DNA from: Actinomycetota bacterium
Lineage (GTDB): Bacteria; Actinomycetota; Thermoleophilia; Gaiellales; Gaiellaceae
Direction of reading: 5' to 3'
Length of the DNA stretch: 12,712 nucleotides
NCBI GenBank assembly: GCA_019234175.1
Contig: JAFALP010000296.1
Location: 1-12,712, forward strand
In this document: positions 2,909 to 12,712 of the stretch, one piece after another
Numbering within the stretch: the first letter of the stretch is position 1
Layout of the letters: every line of letters begins with the position of its first letter
Position numbers and translations under genes: made by a program
Notes under the pieces: model-generated
The model's database searches: none
What the model saw: the letters and a program-made list of their open reading frames with translations, nothing else
What the model was told of the DNA's origin: nothing

Positions 2909-3487
2909 ATGCGCAAACAATTGGTCGTTCTCGCTGCAGCGGGCGCCGTCGCGCTCGTCGTGGCCGCGTCTGCCTCGGCACACGCACGGATGAGCCCGGC
3001 GATCTCGGTGGCGAACGAGCTGCAGCTGTACAGCCTCGCGATCCCGACCGAGAAGGCGAACGCCTACACGACGAAGATCGTGCTGACGCTGCCGAAGAAC
3101 TTCTCGATCGACTCCTTCGTCCCGAGCCCGGGCTGGAAGCGCGTCGAGAGCTCGACCGGCTCGGGTGACAACGCGGTCATCACGCAGGTCACCTGGACCG
3201 GCGGCCACATCCCGACCGAGGAAGACTCGCTCTTCCAGTTCCTCGCGCAGCCCGCCACAGCCGGCACCTACACGTTCCAGGTCGAGCAGACGTACTCGGA
3301 CGGCTCGATCGTGAACTGGTCGGGCCCGGAGACGGCAGCCGCCCCGGCGCCGACGATCAAGGTCGTCAGCTCCGTGAACGGCGGCGGGACCTCGACGCTG
3401 ACACTCGTCGCGCTCGTGCTCGGCGCGCTCGGCCTGCTCGTCGGCGGATTGGCCCTCTTCTCGAGAGGAGGGCGGTCGCTGACGTGA
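2909..3487 (+). CDS. ycnI: YcnI-family (DUF1775) exported copper-binding protein
   Basis: A 192-residue exported protein anchored by a C-terminal helix. A signal peptide covers residues 1-24, ending ASASA, so the mature protein should begin at His25 (HARMSP). An N-terminal histidine plus a downstream Glu and Trp form the monohistidine-brace Cu(II) site described for Bacillus YcnI. Here His25, Glu48 in AIPTEK and a tryptophan (Trp76 or Trp96, the latter in VTWTGG) are the candidates. The DUF1775 beta domain spans about 25-150. A Gly/Thr-rich linker leads to a transmembrane helix at about 163-184 and a short basic tail. The start has an excellent ribosome site, GGAGGAG at 2895-2901, seven bases upstream. 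Its stop overlaps the GTG of the next gene (GTGA), so the two are translationally coupled. Likely role: an extracytoplasmic copper chaperone. Confidence 0.93.
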   Translation: MRKQLVVLAAAGAVALVVAASASAHARMSPAISVANELQLYSLAIPTEKANAYTTKIVLTLPKNFSIDSFVPSPGWKRVESSTGSGDNAVITQVTWTGGHIPTEEDSLFQFLAQPATAGTYTFQVEQTYSDGSIVNWSGPETAAAPAPTIKVVSSVNGGGTSTLTLVALVLGALGLLVGGLALFSRGGRSLT

Positions 3488-5196
3488 GGCGAGCCGGTCT
3501 CACCGCCCTCGTAGCCGCCGTCGCGCTCGTCGTGCCGGCGGCTGCGTCGGCGCACGCGTACCTGATCAAGACCCTGCCGGCGGCGAGCGTCACCCTCGAG
3601 ACGCCGCCGCCGAGCGTTCAGCTCACGTACGACGAGGCGGTCGAGCCGCGCTTTGCCACCATCTCGGTGACGGACGCCGCCGGGCATTCGCAGACGACCG
3701 GATCCGTGTCGCGGTCGCCGTCGAACCCGGACACGCTCGTCGTTCCGCTCCGCCACCTGCAGCAGGGCTGGTACCTCGTGTACTGGCGCGCGATCTCCGT
3801 CGACGGCCATCCCGTGCAGGGCGTCTTCGAGTTCGCGGTTGGACCGAATCCGGGGCCTTCGCCGCAGTTCACGCCGCCGCACATCTCGGGGTCGGCGACC
3901 TCGACGCCGCTCGTCGTCGCGAAGTGGCTCGCGTTCCTCACGATGATGGCGGCGATCGGGTTGTTCGTCCTGCGCATGCTGATCGCGCGCCCTGTGATTC
4001 GCCGCGTCGCCGGGACGAATCTCCATGCCCTCACGGTCGCGTTCGGCGCCGTCGCCGTCGCGGCTCTCCTCGCCATCCCGGCGTACCTCGAGGAAGCGAC
4101 GTCGATCGACGACGTGACGCACTCCTTCTGGGACTTCGGGGCGCTCGTCCCGCTCTGGCGCATCACCGCGTTCGGCCGAGGCTACGTCGACGTCGAGATC
4201 TGCTTCGCGCTCTTCTGCGGTGCGGCGGCGGCCGCCATCTGGGTCGATCGTCCGGAGCGGGAGCATCGCTCGGTCGCCTCCCTCCTCGCGATGAGCGGCG
4301 CGCTCGCGGCAGCCGGGGCAACGCTCCTCCTCCCAGGGACGATCGGCCACGCGGGCCAGACGGCGCCGCGCGGCGTCGCCGTCCTCCTCGACTGGCTCCA
4401 TCTCGTCTCCGGCTCCGTCTGGGTCGGCGGCCTCATCGGCCTGCTGGTCGTGTGGCGGAGCCTGCCGGCGGCGAAGCGCATCGCCGGGCTCGGCGTCTGC
4501 GTGCCGCGCTTCTCGAACACGGCCTTCGTCTCGGTGATGGTCCTGCTCGGCACCGGGGTGGGCGCGGCCGTGCTGCACCTTCCCGTCCTCGATGCGCTCT
4601 GGCTCACGTCGTACGGGAAGGTGATCCTCATCAAGGCGGGCATCCTGCTCGCGGCGATGTTGCTCGCCGCGGTCAACCTGTTGAGGACGAAGCCCGGACT
4701 CTCGCGCGCCGAGACGAGCGAGGCGTCGGCCCGGCTCCTGCGACGGGTCGTTTCCGGCGAGGTGGTCCTCGTCGCCGGGGCCGTCGCGGCGGCGTCCGTG
4801 CTCTCGAGCCTCGCCCCGCCGCCGCCGGCGTTCGCGAAGGAGAACTCCTCGCTCGCGACCGTCGGCCCCGGGAAGGTGGCGGCCTCCGTGAAGGAGAACG
4901 GCTACACGCTGCAGGTGCTCGTGAGCCCGAACAAGGCGGTCGCGCCGAACGCGTTCGCGCTGAAGGTGACGCGCGGCGGCAAGCCGGTGGTCGGCGCGAA
5001 CATCACGCTCAGCTTCGACATGCTCGCCATGGAGATGCCGACCCAGGAGTTCCAGCTCACGGAGACGGCCCCCGGCATCTACAGCCAGAAGACGTCGGCG
5101 CTCGTCATGGCCGGCCCCTGGGCGCTGTCGTTCAGCGTCACGCCGCGGGGCGGCCTGCCGTTCGACGCCACCATCGTCGACCACGCCGCCGGATGA
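3484..5196 (+). CDS. ycnJ: YcnJ-like CopC-CopD-YtkA copper import fusion
   Basis: A 570-residue membrane protein with three parts. A signal peptide (1-23) precedes a CopC domain (24-120). Mature His24, the YDE element at 49-51 and the DxH motif Asp107-His109 match the known Cu(II) ligands of CopC proteins. A CopD membrane domain follows (about 143-443), with roughly eight helices and typical CopD elements: GTIGHAG with His289, DWLHLVSGSVWVGG with His306, SYGKVILIK near 376 and AAVNLLRTK near 395. The last part, 455-570, is an extracytoplasmic YtkA/FixH-like beta domain with the methionine-rich stretch DMLAMEMPT at 512-520. The same three-part order is known in Bacillus YcnJ, a copper acquisition protein. 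It starts with GTG overlapping the ycnI stop, and its stop overlaps the following small gene (ATGA). No YcnK-type regulator is visible here. Confidence 0.93.
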   Translation: MRRAGLTALVAAVALVVPAAASAHAYLIKTLPAASVTLETPPPSVQLTYDEAVEPRFATISVTDAAGHSQTTGSVSRSPSNPDTLVVPLRHLQQGWYLVYWRAISVDGHPVQGVFEFAVGPNPGPSPQFTPPHISGSATSTPLVVAKWLAFLTMMAAIGLFVLRMLIARPVIRRVAGTNLHALTVAFGAVAVAALLAIPAYLEEATSIDDVTHSFWDFGALVPLWRITAFGRGYVDVEICFALFCGAAAAAIWVDRPEREHRSVASLLAMSGALAAAGATLLLPGTIGHAGQTAPRGVAVLLDWLHLVSGSVWVGGLIGLLVVWRSLPAAKRIAGLGVCVPRFSNTAFVSVMVLLGTGVGAAVLHLPVLDALWLTSYGKVILIKAGILLAAMLLAAVNLLRTKPGLSRAETSEASARLLRRVVSGEVVLVAGAVAAASVLSSLAPPPPAFAKENSSLATVGPGKVAASVKENGYTLQVLVSPNKAVAPNAFALKVTRGGKPVVGANITLSFDMLAMEMPTQEFQLTETAPGIYSQKTSALVMAGPWALSFSVTPRGGLPFDATIVDHAAG

Positions 5197-5291
5197 ACCG
5201 CCTCGTCCTCATCGCCGGGATCGCCGCCCTCGTCTGCGGAGCAGCGGCCGCCGTCGTGGCGCTGGCGGTGCTCCACCACACGATCGGATGA
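5193..5291 (+). CDS. 32-residue single-helix membrane miniprotein
   Basis: A short reading frame whose ATG overlaps the TGA of the CopC-CopD gene (ATGA at 5193-5196), so it is probably translated by coupling. It encodes 32 residues: a short basic start MNRLV, one transmembrane helix rich in Ala, Val and Leu (about residues 4-27) with a single Cys15, and a short tail LHHTIG ending in a di-histidine. It ends 19 bases before the FTR1 start and just before the operator palindrome. It could be a small accessory subunit of the copper or iron transporter, or a metal-ligand peptide; this is inference. The evidence that it is real is the exact 4-nt overlap, matching the preceding junction, and the clean single-helix composition. 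No family is recognised. Confidence 0.65.
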   Translation: MNRLVLIAGIAALVCGAAAAVVALAVLHHTIG

Positions 5292-5293
5292 CC

Positions 5294-5311
5294 TGTAAGG
5301 TGGCCCTTACA
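5294..5311 (+). promoter_or_regulatory. Perfect 7+7 bp palindrome over the FTR1 start: likely metal-regulator operator
   Basis: TGTAAGG at 5294-5300 and CCTTACA at 5305-5311 are exact reverse complements separated by TGGC. The last A is the first base of the FTR1 ATG. TAAGGT at 5296-5301 can also serve as a -10 box (TAnnnT), so a protein bound here would block both promoter and start. The half-site resembles the TTAGG/CCTAA halves of DtxR/IdeR iron boxes, which fits an iron permease gene, but the match is partial. As RNA it would form a hairpin sequestering the start codon, an alternative mode of control. The symmetry is seen directly; the regulator is inferred. Confidence 0.6.
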
Positions 5312-6300
5312 TGCTGCTGCGCCACTGCACGACCGCCGAGGAGATCGCGCAGCGCCGCCGTCTGCGCCGGCGCGCGGCCTGGAGCATCGTCGCCGGCGCG
5401 GCGATCGCCGCCCTCACGTGGAAGGCGGTCTCGGCCCCGGGCGGCGTCCCCGACCCGACCGCCCCCGGCACGCACCTCAGCCACGGCGCCGTCGTCCTCG
5501 ACAGCGGCCTGCTCGTCTTCCGGGAAGGCCTCGAGGCGGTCCTCGTCCTCGCGGCCCTGACGGCCAGCTTCGTCGGCGCCAATGCGCGCCTCCGCCGCCC
5601 GGTCGCCGCCGGCGCCGGCATCGGCCTCGCCGTCTCGGCTGCGACGTGGTTCCTCGCCGTCGCCGTCATCGGCGCGCTCGGCGGCCCCGGCCTGGACGTG
5701 CAGGCGGCCACCGGACTCCTCGCCGTCGCCGTGCTCCTCGTGGTCATGAACTGGTTCTTCCACAAGGTGTACTGGACCGGCTGGATCTCGGCGCACAACC
5801 GCGCGCGCCGCCGGCTGGGCGGGCCGGACGCGGGCCGGCGTGCCCTGCTCGGCCTCGCCGTCCTCGGCTTCACCTCCGTCTACCGCGAAGGCTTCGAGGT
5901 CGTCCTCTTCCTGCAGGCCCTGCGCCTGAAGGCGGGATCGCTGACCGTGCTCGAGGGCGTCGGCATCGGCCTCGCGCTCAGCCTCGCCGTCGCGGTCATC
6001 ACGTTCTCGGCGCAGCACCGCCTGCCATACCGGAAGATGCTGGTCGGCACCGGGGTCCTCCTCGGCTTCGTCCTCCTCGTCATGGTCGGGGAGAGCGTCC
6101 AGGAGCTCCAGCTTGCCGGCTGGCTGCCGACGACGTCGCTCGGCGTGCACTTCCCCGGCTTCGTCGGCGTCTGGTTCGCGACGTTCCCGACGGTCGAGGG
6201 CGTCCTGGCCCAGGTCGCCGCCGCCGGGCTCGTGATCGGCTCGTACGTCGTCGCCGAACGCGTCCGCCGGCCCGTCTCCGCGCGGCTCCAGACCGCCTGA
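5311..6300 (+). CDS. FTR1-family iron permease
   Basis: A 329-residue polytopic membrane protein of the FTR1/EfeU iron permease family. Both family motifs are present: REGLE at 71-75 in FREGLEAVL, and REGFE at 192-196 in YREGFEVVL. In this family their Glu and Arg residues bind iron during transport. About seven to eight helices are visible. An N-terminal cytoplasmic stretch with Arg clusters (15-21) precedes the first helix at about 24-40. In-frame sequence upstream hits a stop at 5296-5298, so ATG 5311 is the first possible ATG. There is no good ribosome site apart from AAGG inside the palindrome. EfeO- and EfeB-like partners, usual with EfeU, are absent from the window; the copper-handling proteins upstream are there instead. 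Iron transport is a strong family inference; metal choice is not proven. Confidence 0.9.
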   Translation: MLLRHCTTAEEIAQRRRLRRRAAWSIVAGAAIAALTWKAVSAPGGVPDPTAPGTHLSHGAVVLDSGLLVFREGLEAVLVLAALTASFVGANARLRRPVAAGAGIGLAVSAATWFLAVAVIGALGGPGLDVQAATGLLAVAVLLVVMNWFFHKVYWTGWISAHNRARRRLGGPDAGRRALLGLAVLGFTSVYREGFEVVLFLQALRLKAGSLTVLEGVGIGLALSLAVAVITFSAQHRLPYRKMLVGTGVLLGFVLLVMVGESVQELQLAGWLPTTSLGVHFPGFVGVWFATFPTVEGVLAQVAAAGLVIGSYVVAERVRRPVSARLQTA

Positions 6301-6982: not shown

Positions 6983-8527
6983 ATGAGTGCCGAGGCGATA
7001 AGCCCGCTGCTGTCGTCGTCGCAGATGGGGACCCTCGCCGCCATCGGCGAGGAGCGGCGCGCCGAGGTCGGCGACGCGCTCTATCGCGTCGGCGACCGGA
7101 CGTATCCGTTCATCGCGGTGCTCGAAGGCGAGGTCTCGATCGTCGACGAGGCGGGGAACGAGCTCGCACATCACGGCCCGAACGGGTTCCTCGGAGAGAT
7201 GAACCTGCTCTCGGGCCAGACGGTGTTCGTCAACGCGATCGTCACGAAGCCGGTGCGCTACATCGCCGTCGAGCGTGAGCGCCTGCGGCCGCTCCTTTTC
7301 GAGGACAGCTCGTTCAGCGAGCTCCTGCTCTCGACCTTCATCGCGCGCCGCGAGCTCCTGCAGCGTGCGCAGGGTATCGGCATGGAGATCGTCGGGCCGC
7401 ACACGTCGCCCGCCACGATTCACCTCGTCGAGTTCGCGCGCAGCAACCGCTTCCCGTACACGTGGCGCGACGAAGCGCACGAGGACGCGCCGCTCGTCCG
7501 TCTGCCGGGCGGCGTCGAGCTGCACAACCCGACGAGCGGACAGCTCTCCCGCGCGCTGGGCGTCGGACGCGAGCTGGCGCCGCGCGAAGAGGTGGACCTG
7601 CTCGTCATCGGCGGCGGCCCCGCCGGCCTCGCCGCCGCCGTCTACGGCGCCTCCGAGGGACTCGACACGCTCGTCATCGAAAGCACCGCGCTCGGCGGGC
7701 AGGCGGGCTCGTCACGGCGCATCGAGAACTACCTCGGGTTCCCGGCCGGGATCACCGGGACCGAGCTGACGAGTCGCGCGGTCACGCAGGCGCGCAAGTT
7801 CAACGCGCGCACGGCGACGCCGTACCGCGCGGTGGCGCTCGAGCCGGGAAGCGACCGCCACGTCGTCCGCCTCGAGGAGGGCAACGAGGTCGCGGCGCGC
7901 GCGGTGCTGATCGCGTCGGGCGCGGCGTATCGCCGGCTTCCCGTCGACGGGCTCGAGGAGTACGAGGGCCTGAGCATCTTCTACGCGGCAGGGCCGCCGG
8001 AGGCGCAGCTGTGCGGCGCCTCGCGCGTCGGCGTCGTCGGCGGCGGCAACTCCGCCGGACAGGCCGCCGTCTGGCTCGCCCGCGGCGGCGCGCTCGTGAC
8101 GCTCCTCCATCGCCGCGCCGACCTGCGCGAGACGATGTCCGACTACCTCGTCCACGAGCTCGAGCGCTACGGCGTCTCCATTCGCGACAACAGCGAGATC
8201 GCGGAGCTCCACGGCGAGGACGGCCGGCTGCACAAGGTGACGCTGAAGAGCGGCGAGCGCCTCCCGTTCTCCTATCTCTTCCTGTTCCTCGGCGCCCTTC
8301 CGTGCACGGAATGGCTCGGCGACACCGTCGTCCGGGACGAGAAGGGCTTCGTCCTCACCGGGCCGCCTGTGGGCGCCGACTTCCTGCTCGAGACGAGCGT
8401 CCCCGGCATCTTCGCCGCAGGCGACGTGCGCTCCGGCTCGACGAAGCGCTGCGCGACCGCCGTCGGCGAAGGGTCCATGGCGGTGCAGCTCGTGCACGCG
8501 CGGCTCGCCGAGCGCGTTCCGGCCTAG
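6983..8527 (+). CDS. cNMP-binding domain fused to thioredoxin-reductase-like FAD oxidoreductase
   Basis: A 514-residue cytosolic fusion. Residues about 10-125 form a cyclic-nucleotide-binding-type beta roll (FIAVLEGEVSIVDEAGNE, GFLGEMNLLSG, and a C-terminal helix). A short glutaredoxin-like remnant follows (140-193), with ELHNPTSGQLSRALG near its end. A two-dinucleotide-domain flavoprotein then fills 203-514. FAD binds at VIGGGPAG (208-215) and GIFAAGDV (475-482); NAD(P)H binds at VVGGGNSAG (351-359). GGQAGSSRRIENYLGFP at 238-254 is thioredoxin-reductase-like. The CxxC redox pair of true thioredoxin reductases is missing: the equivalent stretch reads FYAAGPPEAQLCG, with one cysteine at 344. 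Such proteins are probably NAD(P)H oxidoreductases gated by a nucleotide ligand; the acceptor is unknown. Its stop shares the palindrome CTAG with the convergent DUF2252 stop. Confidence 0.92.
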   Translation: MSAEAISPLLSSSQMGTLAAIGEERRAEVGDALYRVGDRTYPFIAVLEGEVSIVDEAGNELAHHGPNGFLGEMNLLSGQTVFVNAIVTKPVRYIAVERERLRPLLFEDSSFSELLLSTFIARRELLQRAQGIGMEIVGPHTSPATIHLVEFARSNRFPYTWRDEAHEDAPLVRLPGGVELHNPTSGQLSRALGVGRELAPREEVDLLVIGGGPAGLAAAVYGASEGLDTLVIESTALGGQAGSSRRIENYLGFPAGITGTELTSRAVTQARKFNARTATPYRAVALEPGSDRHVVRLEEGNEVAARAVLIASGAAYRRLPVDGLEEYEGLSIFYAAGPPEAQLCGASRVGVVGGGNSAGQAAVWLARGGALVTLLHRRADLRETMSDYLVHELERYGVSIRDNSEIAELHGEDGRLHKVTLKSGERLPFSYLFLFLGALPCTEWLGDTVVRDEKGFVLTGPPVGADFLLETSVPGIFAAGDVRSGSTKRCATAVGEGSMAVQLVHARLAERVPA

Positions 8528-9918
8528 ACGCCCTCCATCGCCGGCACGCGGCCCTCGTCGATCGCCTTCCGCAGCGCTGCGTGGTGGCGCTCGTTCACGT
8601 CGGCGTACGCGGCGGAGAAGTCGGCGATCGCCTTGTCGAAGGCGTCGCCCTTGCCGAGGTAGGCGGAGATGGCGACACGGTCGCCGGAGCGTGCGTGCGC
8701 GCGGGCGAGCGACCAGGCGCACCACCCGCCGTACGTCGCGAGTGCGCGCGGGCGCAGCCGCTCGACGTCGACGGACATCTTCCAGTCGCGCAGCTGGCGC
8801 ACGTAGTAGTCGCGGCCGGCGCCCGTCTCGTCGACGACGCGCGTCCAGCCGAGGAAGATGTCGCTCGCCGCCTGCGCCAGGCGCTGCCCGACGACGACCC
8901 GCTGCCCGTGATTGGACTCGTCGGTGCGGCCGGTGTACGCCTCGAGCACCGACGGGCCTGCCTCCTTGATCTGGAGGATGAGCGCGTCGCTCTCGTCCCG
9001 GCCGAGGACGAGCATCACCCACGAGCGCATCCCGACGCTGCCGACGCCCACCACCTTCCGCGCGAGATGTGCGTAGCGGAAGCTCTCGACCAGCCTGCGC
9101 CGCTCCGGGGCGAGCGAGCGGCGGTAGCTCCGGAAGATGTCCCGCAGGTGCTCGATCCGGTCCGGATGCCCTTCGAGCAGGTCTTCGACGGGCACGACGA
9201 GCGGTGGCTTGGAGACGAAGCGGATCTCGCCGTCGACGACGTGCGTCAGCGTCGCCATGTCATGGGCCGTGCCGTTCATGCGCGCGCGCTCGGCGTCCTT
9301 CTGGACGTCGCGCCGCTCGCTCGACCGCAGCGCCGCCGCGATGGCGTCGATGTCCGCGCGCGCGTACCAGACGTCGACGTTGCGCATGGAGGCGAACGAC
9401 CGCATCGCCTCGCGGTACGAGCGTGCGACGGCGAGCACCGCCGACCGGCGTTCCACGTCGGATGCGCCGATCGCGCGGGCGGCGATCTCGACGCTCGCGG
9501 CAAGCCGCTTCACGTCCCACTCGAACGGCCCGCGGCCGGTCTCGTCGAAGTCGTTGATGTCGAACACGAGGTTCCGCTCCGGCGAGGCGTACCCGCCGAA
9601 GTTGGCGAGATGGGCGTCGCCGACGAGCCCCACGCGGAGGCCCGTGTCGGACGACGCCGAGAGCTCGTTCGCCATCACCGCCGCCGCGCCGCGATAGAAG
9701 GCGAACGGCGAGGCGACCATGCGGCCGTAGCGGATCGGCAGGAGCTCCTGGACGCGCGTCTTCCCCTGTTCGACGAGGATCGCCACCGGATCGTCCACCG
9801 GATGCAGCTCGGTCTCCGCATGGTCCGAGCGCGGGACGGAGGCGCGGGCGGCGCGTCCGCGCTCGACGCGCTCGGCGACGGTGGGATGGGGAACCCGCTC
9901 GACGTCGACGTCAGCCAT
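8524..9918 (-). CDS. DUF2252 family protein
   Basis: A 464-residue soluble protein of the DUF2252 family (COG4320), which has remote similarity to kinase-like folds but no settled function. Signature motifs are PFAFYRGAA at 71-79, GDAHLANFGGY at 100-110 (Asp101, His103, Asn106), and DINDFDET at 120-127, with KRLAASVE after Lys137. The C-terminal half has WSLARAHARSGD. The GDxHxxN and DxxD elements resemble aminoglycoside-kinase-type catalytic and metal sites, which is an inference. The start ATG at 9918 has a GGAGGAG ribosome site (complement of 9926-9932) seven bases upstream, and the gene overlaps the end of the response regulator gene by 8 nt, so the two are coupled. Its stop overlaps that of the convergent flavoprotein gene. 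Being last in a Pel-like operon is unusual for this family. Confidence 0.93.
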   Translation of the reverse strand: MADVDVERVPHPTVAERVERGRAARASVPRSDHAETELHPVDDPVAILVEQGKTRVQELLPIRYGRMVASPFAFYRGAAAVMANELSASSDTGLRVGLVGDAHLANFGGYASPERNLVFDINDFDETGRGPFEWDVKRLAASVEIAARAIGASDVERRSAVLAVARSYREAMRSFASMRNVDVWYARADIDAIAAALRSSERRDVQKDAERARMNGTAHDMATLTHVVDGEIRFVSKPPLVVPVEDLLEGHPDRIEHLRDIFRSYRRSLAPERRRLVESFRYAHLARKVVGVGSVGMRSWVMLVLGRDESDALILQIKEAGPSVLEAYTGRTDESNHGQRVVVGQRLAQAASDIFLGWTRVVDETGAGRDYYVRQLRDWKMSVDVERLRPRALATYGGWCAWSLARAHARSGDRVAISAYLGKGDAFDKAIADFSAAYADVNERHHAALRKAIDEGRVPAMEGV

Positions 9919-10273
9919 CGAGCAGCTCCTCCACCCGTGCGCGCAGCGCCGAGGGGCTGAACGGCTTCGTCAGGTACTCGTCCACGCCGACCTCGTCGGC
10001 GCGGTCGCGGTCCGACTGACGGCCGGCGGCGGTGAGCATGAGGATGCGCGGCTGTGGGCCGTCGGCGTCTGCGCGAAGCGTGCGCGCGACCTCGAAGCCG
10101 TCGAGCCCTGGCATGTCGGCGTCCACGATGAGGATTGCGGGAGCGTGCTCGCGGACCGCGGCCAGCGCCGCGACGCCGTCGTCCGCCTCGACCGCATCGA
10201 GCCCTTTCAACGTTGCGCGGAGCAGGCCGAGGATGAAGGGCTCGTCGTCGGCGATGACGATCGTCCGGCTCAT
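9911..10273 (-). CDS. Single-domain (receiver-only) response regulator
   Basis: A 120-residue CheY-like receiver with nothing attached. All functional residues are present: acidic pocket Asp9-Asp10-Glu11 in IADDEPF, phospho-acceptor Asp51 in LIVDADMPGLDG, Thr81 in LMLTAAG and Lys103 in YLTKPFSP. Phosphorylation by an unseen histidine kinase should change its binding surface, so the output must go through a partner protein. It begins 12 bases after the stop of the PelG-like gene with only a weak GGGG ribosome site. It overlaps the following DUF2252 gene by 8 nt (ATGGCTGA). The context suggests it regulates the exopolysaccharide machinery or the DUF2252 protein after translation; this is inference. 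No kinase gene is in the window. Confidence 0.95.
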   Translation of the reverse strand: MSRTIVIADDEPFILGLLRATLKGLDAVEADDGVAALAAVREHAPAILIVDADMPGLDGFEVARTLRADADGPQPRILMLTAAGRQSDRDRADEVGVDEYLTKPFSPSALRARVEELLDG

Positions 10274-10285
10274 GCTGCCCCGATG

Positions 10286-11863
10286 CTAGTACGCCGAGTA
10301 GGCGAAGAAGTCGAACTCGCCGAAGAGCCGTATGGCATTGCGGGTGGTGGCGGCGGCGAAGACGAACGCGCCGGCCGCGAGGCCCTCGACGCTCTGCCAG
10401 TAGACGCCGCTGCGGCTCGCGAGCAGGCCCACGACGAGCCCGGTCAGCACGGCGTAGAGGAGCGGCCGCACCGCGAAGCCCGGCTGCGAGAGATAGAAGA
10501 AGAACGTCACGTTCAGAAGGCCCCAGACGAGCAGCCCGTAGCCGAGCGCGGCCCAGAGGTAGACGTGGTACGTCGTCGTCTGCCCGAAGAAGTCCTCCGC
10601 CGTGAGGTTGTGGGAGTGGTCGCGGAGAGCGACGCCGGCCAGATACACGCCGACGGCGGAGACGGCGACGACGCCCGTGAGCAACGCGAGCTGCCGTGCG
10701 TAGAACCGCTGGAACGACAGGTTGTGCGACCGGATCCGCCCGCTGTCGAACCGCTTCTGGGTCGGCACGAGCCGCTCCGAGAACGCCGTGACCGTGTAGT
10801 CGATGAGCGCGATCGACAGGAGGAGCGTCACGAGCGCCCAGTCGATGCCGAGCTCGTAGCCGCGGTGGAAGAAGATCCGGTAGTGCGGCGGCGGCGCCTT
10901 CGTCCATGCGACGACCCGGTCGAGGAACACAAACGCGAAGTAGAGGACGCCGTACCAGAAGTACGGGCGAACCTCGGCGACGAGCGTGCGGACGGGCGGC
11001 ATCGTCTCCACGCCCTGCTCCGGCGGCAGGCTCTTGACGAGCCGGTGCAGGACGGTCCCGCCGGCGTCGGCCGCGACGAGCGCGCCGATCCCCGCGGACA
11101 GCCACTCCGACGTGTAGATGCCGAGGTGGAAGACCTCGAGGAGAAGCGCGAGCGTCCCCACCCAGACGACGACCGACACGAGCACGAGCAGGCGGCGCTG
11201 CAGCATGTAGAGGAGGGCGAGCGTGAGCCAGAGGAGCGAGAGCACGAGGTCGTAGACGAAGGCGACGCCGAGGCGCGAGGCGGGAAGGATGTGCAGCCCT
11301 GCACCGAGGACGAAGACCAGCGCGCCGGCGCCGACGGCCGAGGCGAGGCCGAGGAGCACGATCCGATACGCGAGCTCGCGCGCGAGCCGGTAGCTGCTCC
11401 GGCCGACGTAGACGGAGCCGAGCCGGCCGATCGACTGCACGAAGCCGCCCGTGGCGATGAAGCTGAGGATCGACCCGACCATGATCTCGGTCGCCTGCGC
11501 ATCGGACAGCCGCACGATCACGTCGAGGCGGAGAAACGCGACCGTCGCCACCTGGACGATCATCGGCAGCGCGTAGAAGAGGCCGCGGCTGTAGTACGCG
11601 GCGAAGCGCGACGCGCTGCCGAAGACGAGCGAGGCCATGCTGCGCCGCGGCGCCGGAGCGACGACGGGCGCCGCGGCCGCCACGGCGGGGCGGATGCGCC
11701 GCGCGAGCGCGAAGACGTCGGGCTCGAGGAACCGCTCGCGGACGTCGACGTCGCGGACACCGAGCGTCTCGATGGCGGCGGCGACGGCGTCGTCGGAGAC
11801 CGGGTAGCCGATCCGCTCCGCCACCTCGACGGCGAGCTCCTCGACGGTGACCGGCGCGGTCAC
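10286..11863 (-). CDS. PelG-like polytopic membrane protein with N-terminal helical module
   Basis: A 525-residue protein. From residue 76 it is a polytopic membrane protein with about 12 helices. Features matching PelG, the Pel exopolysaccharide export protein, are its place directly after a PelF-like gene, the segment FWYGVLYFAFVFLDRVVAW, the late segment LLNVTFFFYL, and the aromatic C-terminus FDFFAYSAY. A core of about 450 residues is also close to PelG in length. Similarity is distant, so a general polysaccharide flippase is the alternative. Residues 1-58 form an extra helical module (TVEELAVEVAERIGYPV, GVRDVDVRERF, EPDVFALARRI), joined by an Ala/Pro linker (59-72). I chose GTG 11863 because it overlaps the upstream stop (GTGA) and the module looks coding. 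An ATG at 11638 would give the core alone but has no ribosome site. Confidence 0.75.
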   Translation of the reverse strand: MTAPVTVEELAVEVAERIGYPVSDDAVAAAIETLGVRDVDVRERFLEPDVFALARRIRPAVAAAAPVVAPAPRRSMASLVFGSASRFAAYYSRGLFYALPMIVQVATVAFLRLDVIVRLSDAQATEIMVGSILSFIATGGFVQSIGRLGSVYVGRSSYRLARELAYRIVLLGLASAVGAGALVFVLGAGLHILPASRLGVAFVYDLVLSLLWLTLALLYMLQRRLLVLVSVVVWVGTLALLLEVFHLGIYTSEWLSAGIGALVAADAGGTVLHRLVKSLPPEQGVETMPPVRTLVAEVRPYFWYGVLYFAFVFLDRVVAWTKAPPPHYRIFFHRGYELGIDWALVTLLLSIALIDYTVTAFSERLVPTQKRFDSGRIRSHNLSFQRFYARQLALLTGVVAVSAVGVYLAGVALRDHSHNLTAEDFFGQTTTYHVYLWAALGYGLLVWGLLNVTFFFYLSQPGFAVRPLLYAVLTGLVVGLLASRSGVYWQSVEGLAAGAFVFAAATTRNAIRLFGEFDFFAYSAY

Positions 11864-12712
11864 GCGCCCGCCTGCTCGTAGAAGCGCCGGTACGCGTCCA
11901 CCGATCGCTCCGTGCGGAAGCGCGCGAGCACCTGCTCGCGGCCGCGGCGACCGAGCGACAGGCGCAGATCCTCGTCCTGCAGCAGCTGTGCGACGGCGGC
12001 GCCGAGCGCCTCGTCGTCGCGCGGCGGCACGACGATCCCGGCGCCTTCGAGCGCCTCGCGGACGCCGCCGACGTCGGTGGCGGCGACGGGACGGCCGCAC
12101 GACATCGACTCGAGCACCGTGTACGGGAAGCCTTCGGTGATGCTCGAGAGGATGCTGATGTCGCCCTCCGCGTACAGCTCGGACGGGCTCGGATGGAAGC
12201 CGGCGAACGAGAACGTCCGCCCCAGGTCCAGCTCGGCGACGAGCGCGCGGCAGCGGTCGGTGTAGCCCTGGTCGGCGTCGGTGGAGCCGTAGAGGACGAA
12301 GGCGACGTCGGGAACGGTCCGCCGCGCGACCGCGGCGGCGCGGATCATCGTCTCGATGTCCTTCACGGGGATCACGCGCGCGGCCGCGACCACCGTCGGC
12401 GTGCCCGCGCGCTCGCGCGGCTTCGGCCGCGGCGTGAAGACGGACGGGTCGACGCCGTTGTAGATCGTCTTGATCCGCTCCGGGTCGGCGCCGTAGTGCT
12501 CCTCCCAGCGCCGGTTGAAGTCGGCCACCGGCGCGACGACGGATGCATACGCGTACGTCAGCCGCGACAGGTACTCGCCGAGCCGGAGCAGGAACGACTT
12601 CGCATACGAGGTCATGTCGGCGGACGAGACGGCGAGCGAGCGCTCGCGCATGGCGATGCCGTGGTCGGTGACGATGACAGGGGTCCCCCACTCGTGCGCT
12701 GCGACGACGCCG
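11860..12712 (-). CDS. pelF: PelF-like GT4 glycosyltransferase, C-terminal part
   Basis: A partial gene: the frame is open to the right edge, and 283 residues of the C-terminal part are visible. The first residues read AAHEWGTPVIVTDHGIAMRER. TDHGIxxRER matches the TEHGIYxRER element of PelF, the cytosolic GT4 glycosyltransferase that polymerises the Pel exopolysaccharide, and separates it from most other GT4 enzymes. A GT-B C-terminal domain follows: IKTIYNGVDPSVF, PTVVAAARVIPVKDI, and the donor-binding E-x7-E motif EGFPYTVLE (complement of 12109-12135), then CGRPVAATDVGGVREAL. The gene ends in TGA overlapping the GTG of the PelG-like gene, so both are made together. Methionines inside the visible part are not the start; the true start lies outside the window. 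Confidence 0.82.
   Translation of the reverse strand, partial: GVVAAHEWGTPVIVTDHGIAMRERSLAVSSADMTSYAKSFLLRLGEYLSRLTYAYASVVAPVADFNRRWEEHYGADPERIKTIYNGVDPSVFTPRPKPRERAGTPTVVAAARVIPVKDIETMIRAAAVARRTVPDVAFVLYGSTDADQGYTDRCRALVAELDLGRTFSFAGFHPSPSELYAEGDISILSSITEGFPYTVLESMSCGRPVAATDVGGVREALEGAGIVVPPRDDEALGAAVAQLLQDEDLRLSLGRRGREQVLARFRTERSVDAYRRFYEQAGA

Follow-up and report, generated by a model that had tools for sequence, protein, structure and literature searches.

Pel-like polysaccharide genes accompanied by a serine partner-switching set and an altered HD-GYP protein in a Gaiellaceae-type actinobacterium

The pelF-pelG gene row and its upstream part

Contig JAFALP010000296.1 of an Actinomycetota bacterium (assembly GCA_019234175.1; Thermoleophilia, Gaiellaceae) carries a row of minus-strand genes related to those of Pel polysaccharide systems, a well-studied case in which cyclic di-GMP (c-di-GMP) turns on the polymer synthase via PelD. 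The window, i.e., the whole stretch of DNA analysed (12,712 nt), is the complete contig (C331; genomes, contigs and loci are given G, C and L numbers) of a metagenome-assembled genome (MAG, G000) of 440 contigs, which is 84% complete and 3.7% contaminated. The row encodes a PelF-like glycosyltransferase of family 4 (GT4), a PelG-like membrane protein, a phospho-receiver and a DUF2252 protein, joined by a 4-nt overlap, a 12-nt gap and an 8-nt overlap, and both gene order and junctions agree with an initial annotation of this DNA. Based on its gene content, this actinobacterium, of a soil type, appears equipped to synthesise and export a Pel-like biofilm polymer, and the presence of a phospho-switch and an altered HD-GYP protein at the place of the usual c-di-GMP sensor suggests an undescribed on/off control of that polymer.

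Though truncated, the window PelF scores 141.5 bits on the NCBIfam PelF equivalog NF038011 (cut-off 100), and the PelF proteins of three relatives reach 158-177 bits on the PelF model. The identity of PelG is supported because relatives pass the Pfam PelG model PF16933 (cut-off 29): three of ten do so (L025 and L069, 31.2 bits each; L037, 34.7 bits), L033 and L026 stay below the cut-off and the other five give no PelG match. The PelG of G052, one of the three that pass, matches the window PelG at 97.5 bits. An AlphaFold2 model of the window protein (mean predicted local distance difference test score of 83) contains 12 long helices, presumed transmembrane, its closest structures found with Foldseek are MATE, WzxE and MurJ, and it has a predicted MOP/MATE-type fold. 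The N-terminus forms a predicted four-helix mini-domain in which G19, P21, E32, G35, R37, D40, F51, and A54 are invariant in 12 of 12 alignment rows; as the Pfam PelG matches of five relatives start at residue 93 at least, this mini-domain precedes the modelled part. A search of the contigs with the single PelG sequence gave no relative and a PelG alignment used in its place gave 41 loci. Beyond the window, PelG relatives occur at 47 distinct loci spread over several phyla, nearly all of them beside a pelF, which indicates that the pairing is more than chance. The named homologues nearest to the window PelG come from Gaiellaceae. The PelF/PelG-type polysaccharide operon proposed initially is supported; at the profile level PelF is recognised in the window itself and PelG in part of its relatives.

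A search of the MAG with the full-length PelF of L065 recovered the gene in two halves: the window encodes the C-terminal one, and the N-terminal one (182 codons; DUF3492, 68.7 bits) sits at the end of contig C267, with about 50 nt absent between the two contigs as estimated from the alignment. Identity to the PelF of L065 is 66%. Upstream of the 5' part of pelF, C267 (locus L084) holds six genes, all on one strand, encoding a 5'-cut fragment of an Agd3-like deacetylase, a SpoIIE phosphatase with a GAF domain, a GAF-GAF-HD protein, a STAS protein, a HATPase_c_2 kinase and a second PelF-family GT4, which scores 228 bits on the PelF model, above PelF itself. The junctions from the deacetylase fragment to pelF are -4, -4, -13, -4, -4, and +13 nt. 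The window is probably the 3' end of a ten-gene operon.

Partner-switching genes and the GAF-GAF-HD protein

The SpoIIE phosphatase (PF07228, 160 bits; 418 bits in another scan of L084), the STAS protein (PF13466, 62.8 bits; PF01740, 60.6 bits) and the HATPase_c_2 kinase (PF13581, 89 bits) of C267 make up a serine partner-switching set. Using profiles built here and run over the fetched loci, with matches above 40 bits retained in the locus map, STAS and HATPase genes were found to accompany pelFG at 9 of 48 distinct PelG loci, eight actinobacterial and one from Kryptonia. These are the own locus (L084 plus the window), G317 (L064, the contig of L014), G266 (L065, equal to L013), G342 (L067), G277 (L068), G052 (L069), G217 (L070), a Solirubrobacterales MAG (L029) and Candidatus Chrysopegis kryptomonas (L023). 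The SpoIIE motifs VGGD and DD.T, the STAS motif DS(S/A)G and the HATPase N-box E...N, which we take to have their customary roles, are intact in all nine aligned sets, one of the SpoIIE proteins (L067) being encoded outside its operon. The Kryptonia locus has the order GH114, HATPase, GT4, PelF, PelG, multi-transmembrane (multi-TM) protein, SpoIIE, receiver, GAF/HD/STAS and PelADA-like DUF2194, in which STAS is fused to the GAF/HD protein, and the receiver is fused to SpoIIE in L069 and L029. The partner-switching set is a stronger case for phosphorylation control than the lone receiver, and its occurrence upstream of pelF and at eight other loci supports the earlier idea of a Pel variant controlled by phosphorylation.

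A PelF tree of 24 rows places the eight actinobacterial PelFs of partner-switch loci together with two from Chloroflexota and that of G327 (100/99), and the Kryptonia and Bacteroidota/Balneolota PelFs join at the next level (100/99). The PelFs of the Agd3-type, GAG-like loci L071, L095, and L097 branch apart from them on long branches; L096, with no PelF long enough, was left out, and the G327 locus was covered without its upstream stretch. The partner-switch PelFs were considered as a clade of their own and this was rejected, as Chloroflexota, G327 and Bacteroidota/Balneolota rows lie inside the smallest starred set that includes Kryptonia; therefore, the control module has undergone more than one gain or loss. 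Another phosphorylation wiring of a pelFG locus is seen in a Thermoflexales MAG, in which a PAS/GAF histidine kinase gene lies between pelF and pelG.

Among 399 genomes of the class, seven were found to have the GAF-GAF-HD family, in each case at pelFG. The protein has the HD-GYP fold and an altered signature: the Lys of HDxGK and the Tyr of GYP are found in none of 62 homologues, the Tyr being replaced by Phe in 59 and the final Asp by Glu in 58, whereas ordinary HD-GYP relatives retain K/R in 24/28 and D in 24/28. Conversely, H221, D222, H250, H276, and H277 are retained in 62/62 and H189 in 60/62, residues that are presumably the HD metal ligands. These replacements set the family apart from the HD-GYP phosphodiesterases PmGH (4MCW), PA4781 (4R8Z) and c-di-GMP-bound DvhD (9RBZ). 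Across all 32 loci with an HD match, HD-GYP-like genes without the HDxGK lysine were also observed in the pelFG rows of Campylobacterota and of Balneolota.

Scanning the operon genes of L065, L084, and L023 brought up no recognised PelD-like gene. The own genome has eight GGDEF matches, and c-di-GMP is a possible ligand there. In Chloroflexota, Balneolota, Bacillota, Campylobacterota and Bacteroidota, the stretch downstream of pelG encodes multi-TM proteins of 650-750 aa. These form a family whose proteins match one another, have 7-13 hydrophobic segments and no Pfam match, and were considered as PelD/PelE. A 579-aa protein of L023 is weakly similar to them.

Polymer type, proposed control and rival explanations

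Genes for enzymes that could modify the polymer (GH114, Spherulin-4 or deacetylase) were detected at 4 of 9 partner-switch loci, the weak fragment of the own locus included. Locus L065 has two Spherulin-4 genes (67 bits to the solved spherulin-4), a family that is presumably GH135; GH114 occurs in L070 and L023, and the DUF2194 protein of L023 matches the Bacillus cereus PelADA (PDB 9ZAU) at 158 bits. Sister loci encode Agd3 with CBM87 (L071), GH114 (L095) and Spherulin-4 (L097). The PelG alignment had matches in 10 of 399 class genomes and 4 of 103 family genomes, own included, and in none of 15 other genomes of the genus. Agd3 is encoded in three of these ten (G317, G092, and G217) vs 14 of 399 overall (Fisher p 0.004; with the nine genomes above the cut-off, two overlap, p 0.019), and in G317 (L064) it lies away from the pelFG locus. 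The Agd3 model PF25115 had no match in the other seven (G000, G277, G327, G052, G174, G266, and G342), although G174 shows a weak match to the Agd3 protein of L071. The alignment did not pick up the genome G010, which the single PelG sequence did match (8.5e-10) and which carries a different Agd3-PelF-PelG locus (L095). Together with G106 (with GH114), G174 (with Spherulin-4) and G092, it represents a second arrangement without the partner switch, with low PelG scores (78, 37, 20, and 117 bits for G010, G106, G174 and G092, respectively). Enzymes of the GH114, Spherulin-4 and deacetylase types act on Pel and on galactosaminogalactan (GAG), according to extracts of published work (PMC7112168, PMC13254593, PMC7229062).

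Based on this evidence, it is fairly likely that a Pel/GAG-type polymer machinery is gated here by serine partner switching in place of PelD. The polymer may be a partly deacetylated alpha-1,4-N-acetylgalactosamine of the Pel/GAG type, built in the cytoplasm by the two PelF-family GT4 enzymes, exported by the MOP-type PelG and trimmed outside by an Agd3-like deacetylase, with GH114 or Spherulin-4 hydrolases at some related loci. The HATPase kinase would phosphorylate the Ser of the STAS motif, and SpoIIE, cued by the receiver and by its own GAF domain, would remove the phosphate; the GAF-GAF-HD protein would then read the state of STAS and permit or block synthesis by PelF and export by PelG. 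This order of steps is supported by the receiver-SpoIIE and HD-STAS fusions. More tentatively, and with clearly less than an even chance, the GAF-GAF-HD protein could be a new receptor class that replaces PelD. As a catalytically altered HD-GYP it would bind a nucleotide and dock on PelF/PelG, possibly at the PelG mini-domain, with STAS phosphorylation as its gate, the synthase opening only when serine-phosphorylation and nucleotide cues agree; the lysine-less HD proteins of Balneolota and Campylobacterota would then represent the same replacement without the partner switch.

Several observations weigh against gating of the polymer machinery by partner switching. The window PelG itself matches no Pfam or NCBIfam model, the partner switch is missing at 39 of 48 PelG loci, and three further loci (L095-L097) also lack it. 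The PelD model PF16963 matched 0 of 23 genomes and none of 14 control genomes, so the absence of PelD is not shown. The scanned operon genes of L065, L084, and L023 include no sigma factor, so what the switch acts on is unproven and may be encoded elsewhere. The Kryptonia genome G403 has no GGDEF match, which speaks against c-di-GMP as the ligand in Kryptonia, where it is unlikely. Modifying enzymes were not found within the covered stretches of L064, L067, L068, L069, and L029 (5/9), and the Agd3-like gene of the own genome is a C-terminal fragment that scores weakly (17.5 bits, cut-off 27.6; BLASTP 53.5 bits). Since searches of this genome with the L071 protein (E 0.01) and with PF25115 detected no Agd3, the claim of a deacetylase in the own operon depends on this fragment. 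Of the genes that the initial annotation proposed to look for nearby (PelD/PelE/PelA-like or glycoside hydrolase/deacetylase), hydrolases or deacetylases occur at 4/9 partner-switch loci; the own locus has the 5'-cut fragment on C267 and no recognised PelD. Lastly, C267 and the window are linked through a split gene and not by assembly.

A wrong join would mean that C267 derives from a different locus or a different organism, leaving pelF, pelG, the receiver and DUF2252 as the whole of the window operon. The contig ends share no overlap, the GC contents differ (0.743 vs 0.709) and contamination of the MAG amounts to 3.69%; nevertheless, a wrong join is extremely improbable, as besides the second GT4 the sole match of the genome to the N-terminal half of PelF lies at the end of C267 and stops where the window part starts, and the genes from GAF-HD through PelG are unbroken on single contigs in L064, L065, L067, L068, and L029. 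In three further relatives the PelG and GAF-HD homologues are on contigs of equal size (192582, 8389, and 39088 nt), so these Gaiellaceae-type pairs probably share the linkage.

Sigma factors are the targets of classical RsbU/V/W modules, and a rival explanation is that the switch acts on transcription, STAS and HATPase targeting a sigma or anti-sigma factor encoded elsewhere with the operon as its own target, and the HD protein, as an ordinary phosphodiesterase, lowering the local level of c-di-GMP. This is rather unlikely: the retained putative metal ligands and the GGDEF matches of the own genome are in line with it, but the operon genes scanned include no sigma gene, loss of the HDxGK Lys and GYP Tyr in every homologue means that the HD enzyme is no ordinary one, L023 has a fusion of STAS with the HD protein, and Kryptonia carries the module without GGDEF matches. 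Still less probable is an unrelated heteropolysaccharide or glycoconjugate made on a PelF/PelG scaffold, in which the two GT4 enzymes would use other sugars and the regulators would be generic neighbours. The presence of two PelF-family enzymes rather than one, a PelG diverged past Pfam detection, the unproven full-length deacetylase of the own genome and the five loci without modifying enzymes would fit such a polymer; however, GH114, Spherulin-4, Agd3 or PelADA-like genes recur at 4/9 and at sister loci, and the GAF-GAF-HD family was found in the class only at pelFG loci. The options of a Pel variant and of a different system built on PelF/PelG, initially set apart, are probably one, a Pel/GAG-like system with different control.

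Comparison with known systems was made with extracts of the cited papers. As in the pelABCDEFG operon of Pseudomonas aeruginosa and pelDEADAFG of B. cereus, PelF adjoins the PelG exporter and a deacetylase or hydrolase lies in or near several operons, the Kryptonia version having a PelADA-like gene; unlike these, SpoIIE, STAS, HATPase and GAF-GAF-HD genes stand in the stead of a recognised PelD, there is a second PelF-like GT4, and the PelG mini-domain falls outside the Pfam model (PMC7112168, PMC13254593). Pel-like operons with PelD within the conserved set were reported in 161 Gram-positive organisms (PMC7112168). Operons with pelFG only, likewise without a recognised PelD, are mentioned elsewhere, with Actinobacteria and Rubrobacteria Pel operons named and neighbouring regulators not described in the extract (PMC7112194). 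Bacterial agd3 operons with a cytoplasmic GT, a multi-spanning membrane protein, a CE18 deacetylase, GH114 and, in some Actinobacteria, Spherulin-4 have been described; L071, L095, L096, and L097 are of this kind, and the extract of that description does not mention partner-switching or HD-GYP genes (PMC7229062). In its way of working, the system most resembles the SypE-SypA switch of Vibrio fischeri, which controls syp, a polysaccharide biofilm locus, by phosphorylation of a STAS protein at a conserved Ser, with a response-regulator-cued kinase/phosphatase (PMC4517449). Compared with SypE as presented in that extract, kinase and phosphatase are separate proteins here. The polymer machinery of syp is reportedly unrelated to pelFG, with no GAF-GAF-HD partner. 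A word search of the open-licence literature (titles and abstract openings) gave, among the matches listed, no description of partner switching or of an HD-GYP receptor in a pel operon; the polymer machinery itself is already known.

Should the proposed control hold, the Pel machine would accept other control inputs, with HD-GYP domains able to act as receptors there, and Pel/GAG-type polymers would extend to uncultured Gaiellaceae-type actinobacteria and Kryptonia. The control of pelFG operons without a recognised PelD becomes directly testable.

Receiver, DUF2252 and neighbouring genes

The window receiver (Response_reg, 86 bits) retains in the alignment the Asp pair, the acceptor Asp, the Thr and the Lys, to which we assign the usual receiver roles. 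A receiver is present or fused at 7 of 9 partner-switch loci, standing alone in the own locus, L065, L067, L068, and L023; it was not detected in L064, where the contig stops just past pelG, or in L070. The receiver belongs to the system and is movable: as a separate gene it precedes GAF-HD or follows pelG, and at other loci it is part of a SpoIIE fusion. It is probably an input to this phosphatase. In G342 (L067), genes for a receiver and a Hpt-REC-REC-GGDEF protein lie immediately 3' of pelG.

The DUF2252 protein (PF10009, 454 bits) was considered as a component of the system and rejected, as the only match of its profile among the loci scanned was the window's own (the stretch downstream of pelG was not covered for L064); it is probably a passenger. 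No other locus scanned has the four-gene order with receiver-DUF2252 at its end, some contigs stopping right after pelG (e.g., L064).

Table 1. Coordinates of the genes and domains discussed (window positions unless a locus or contig is given).
Feature	Position	Strand	Remarks
PelF-like GT4, C-terminal 283 residues	12711-11860	-	NCBIfam PelF, Pfam DUF3492 C-part, Glycos_transf_1; open at contig end
PelG-like MOP-superfamily exporter, 525 aa	11863-10286	-	GTG start; overlaps pelF by 4 nt; homologues P0002-P0013
N-terminal four-helix mini-domain of PelG, residues 7-64	11672..11845	-	Conserved residues and modelled helices
Stand-alone phospho-receiver, 120 aa	10273-9911	-	Response_reg; starts 12 nt after pelG
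DUF2252 protein, 464 aa	9918-8524	-	PF10009; co-oriented with receiver gene, 8-nt overlap
Cyclic-nucleotide-binding/oxidoreductase fusion	6983-8527		3' end overlaps 3' end of DUF2252 gene, opposite strand, 4 nt
DUF1775, CopC-CopD-YtkA and FTR1-like genes	2909-6300	+	In series
pelF N-terminal 182 codons	G000:C267 5169-5715		Matched stretch C267:5175-5711
Multi-TM family members	L012:7848-10094; L016:14076-16136; L025:11569-13530; L025:13566-15584; L033:12883-15057; L037:12401-14395		Downstream of pelG
HD-GYP-like genes without HDxGK lysine	L033:15054-16550; L016:11588-13210		Campylobacterota, Balneolota
PAS/GAF histidine kinase gene	L015:2224-4302		Thermoflexales MAG
Receiver and Hpt-REC-REC-GGDEF protein	L067:7645-9746		G342

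Beyond the row, the window encodes a cyclic-nucleotide-binding domain fused to a pyridine-nucleotide-disulphide oxidoreductase (thioredoxin-reductase-like), as well as a DUF1775 protein, a fused CopC-CopD-YtkA protein and an FTR1-like permease, a series that resembles a copper/iron handling cluster.

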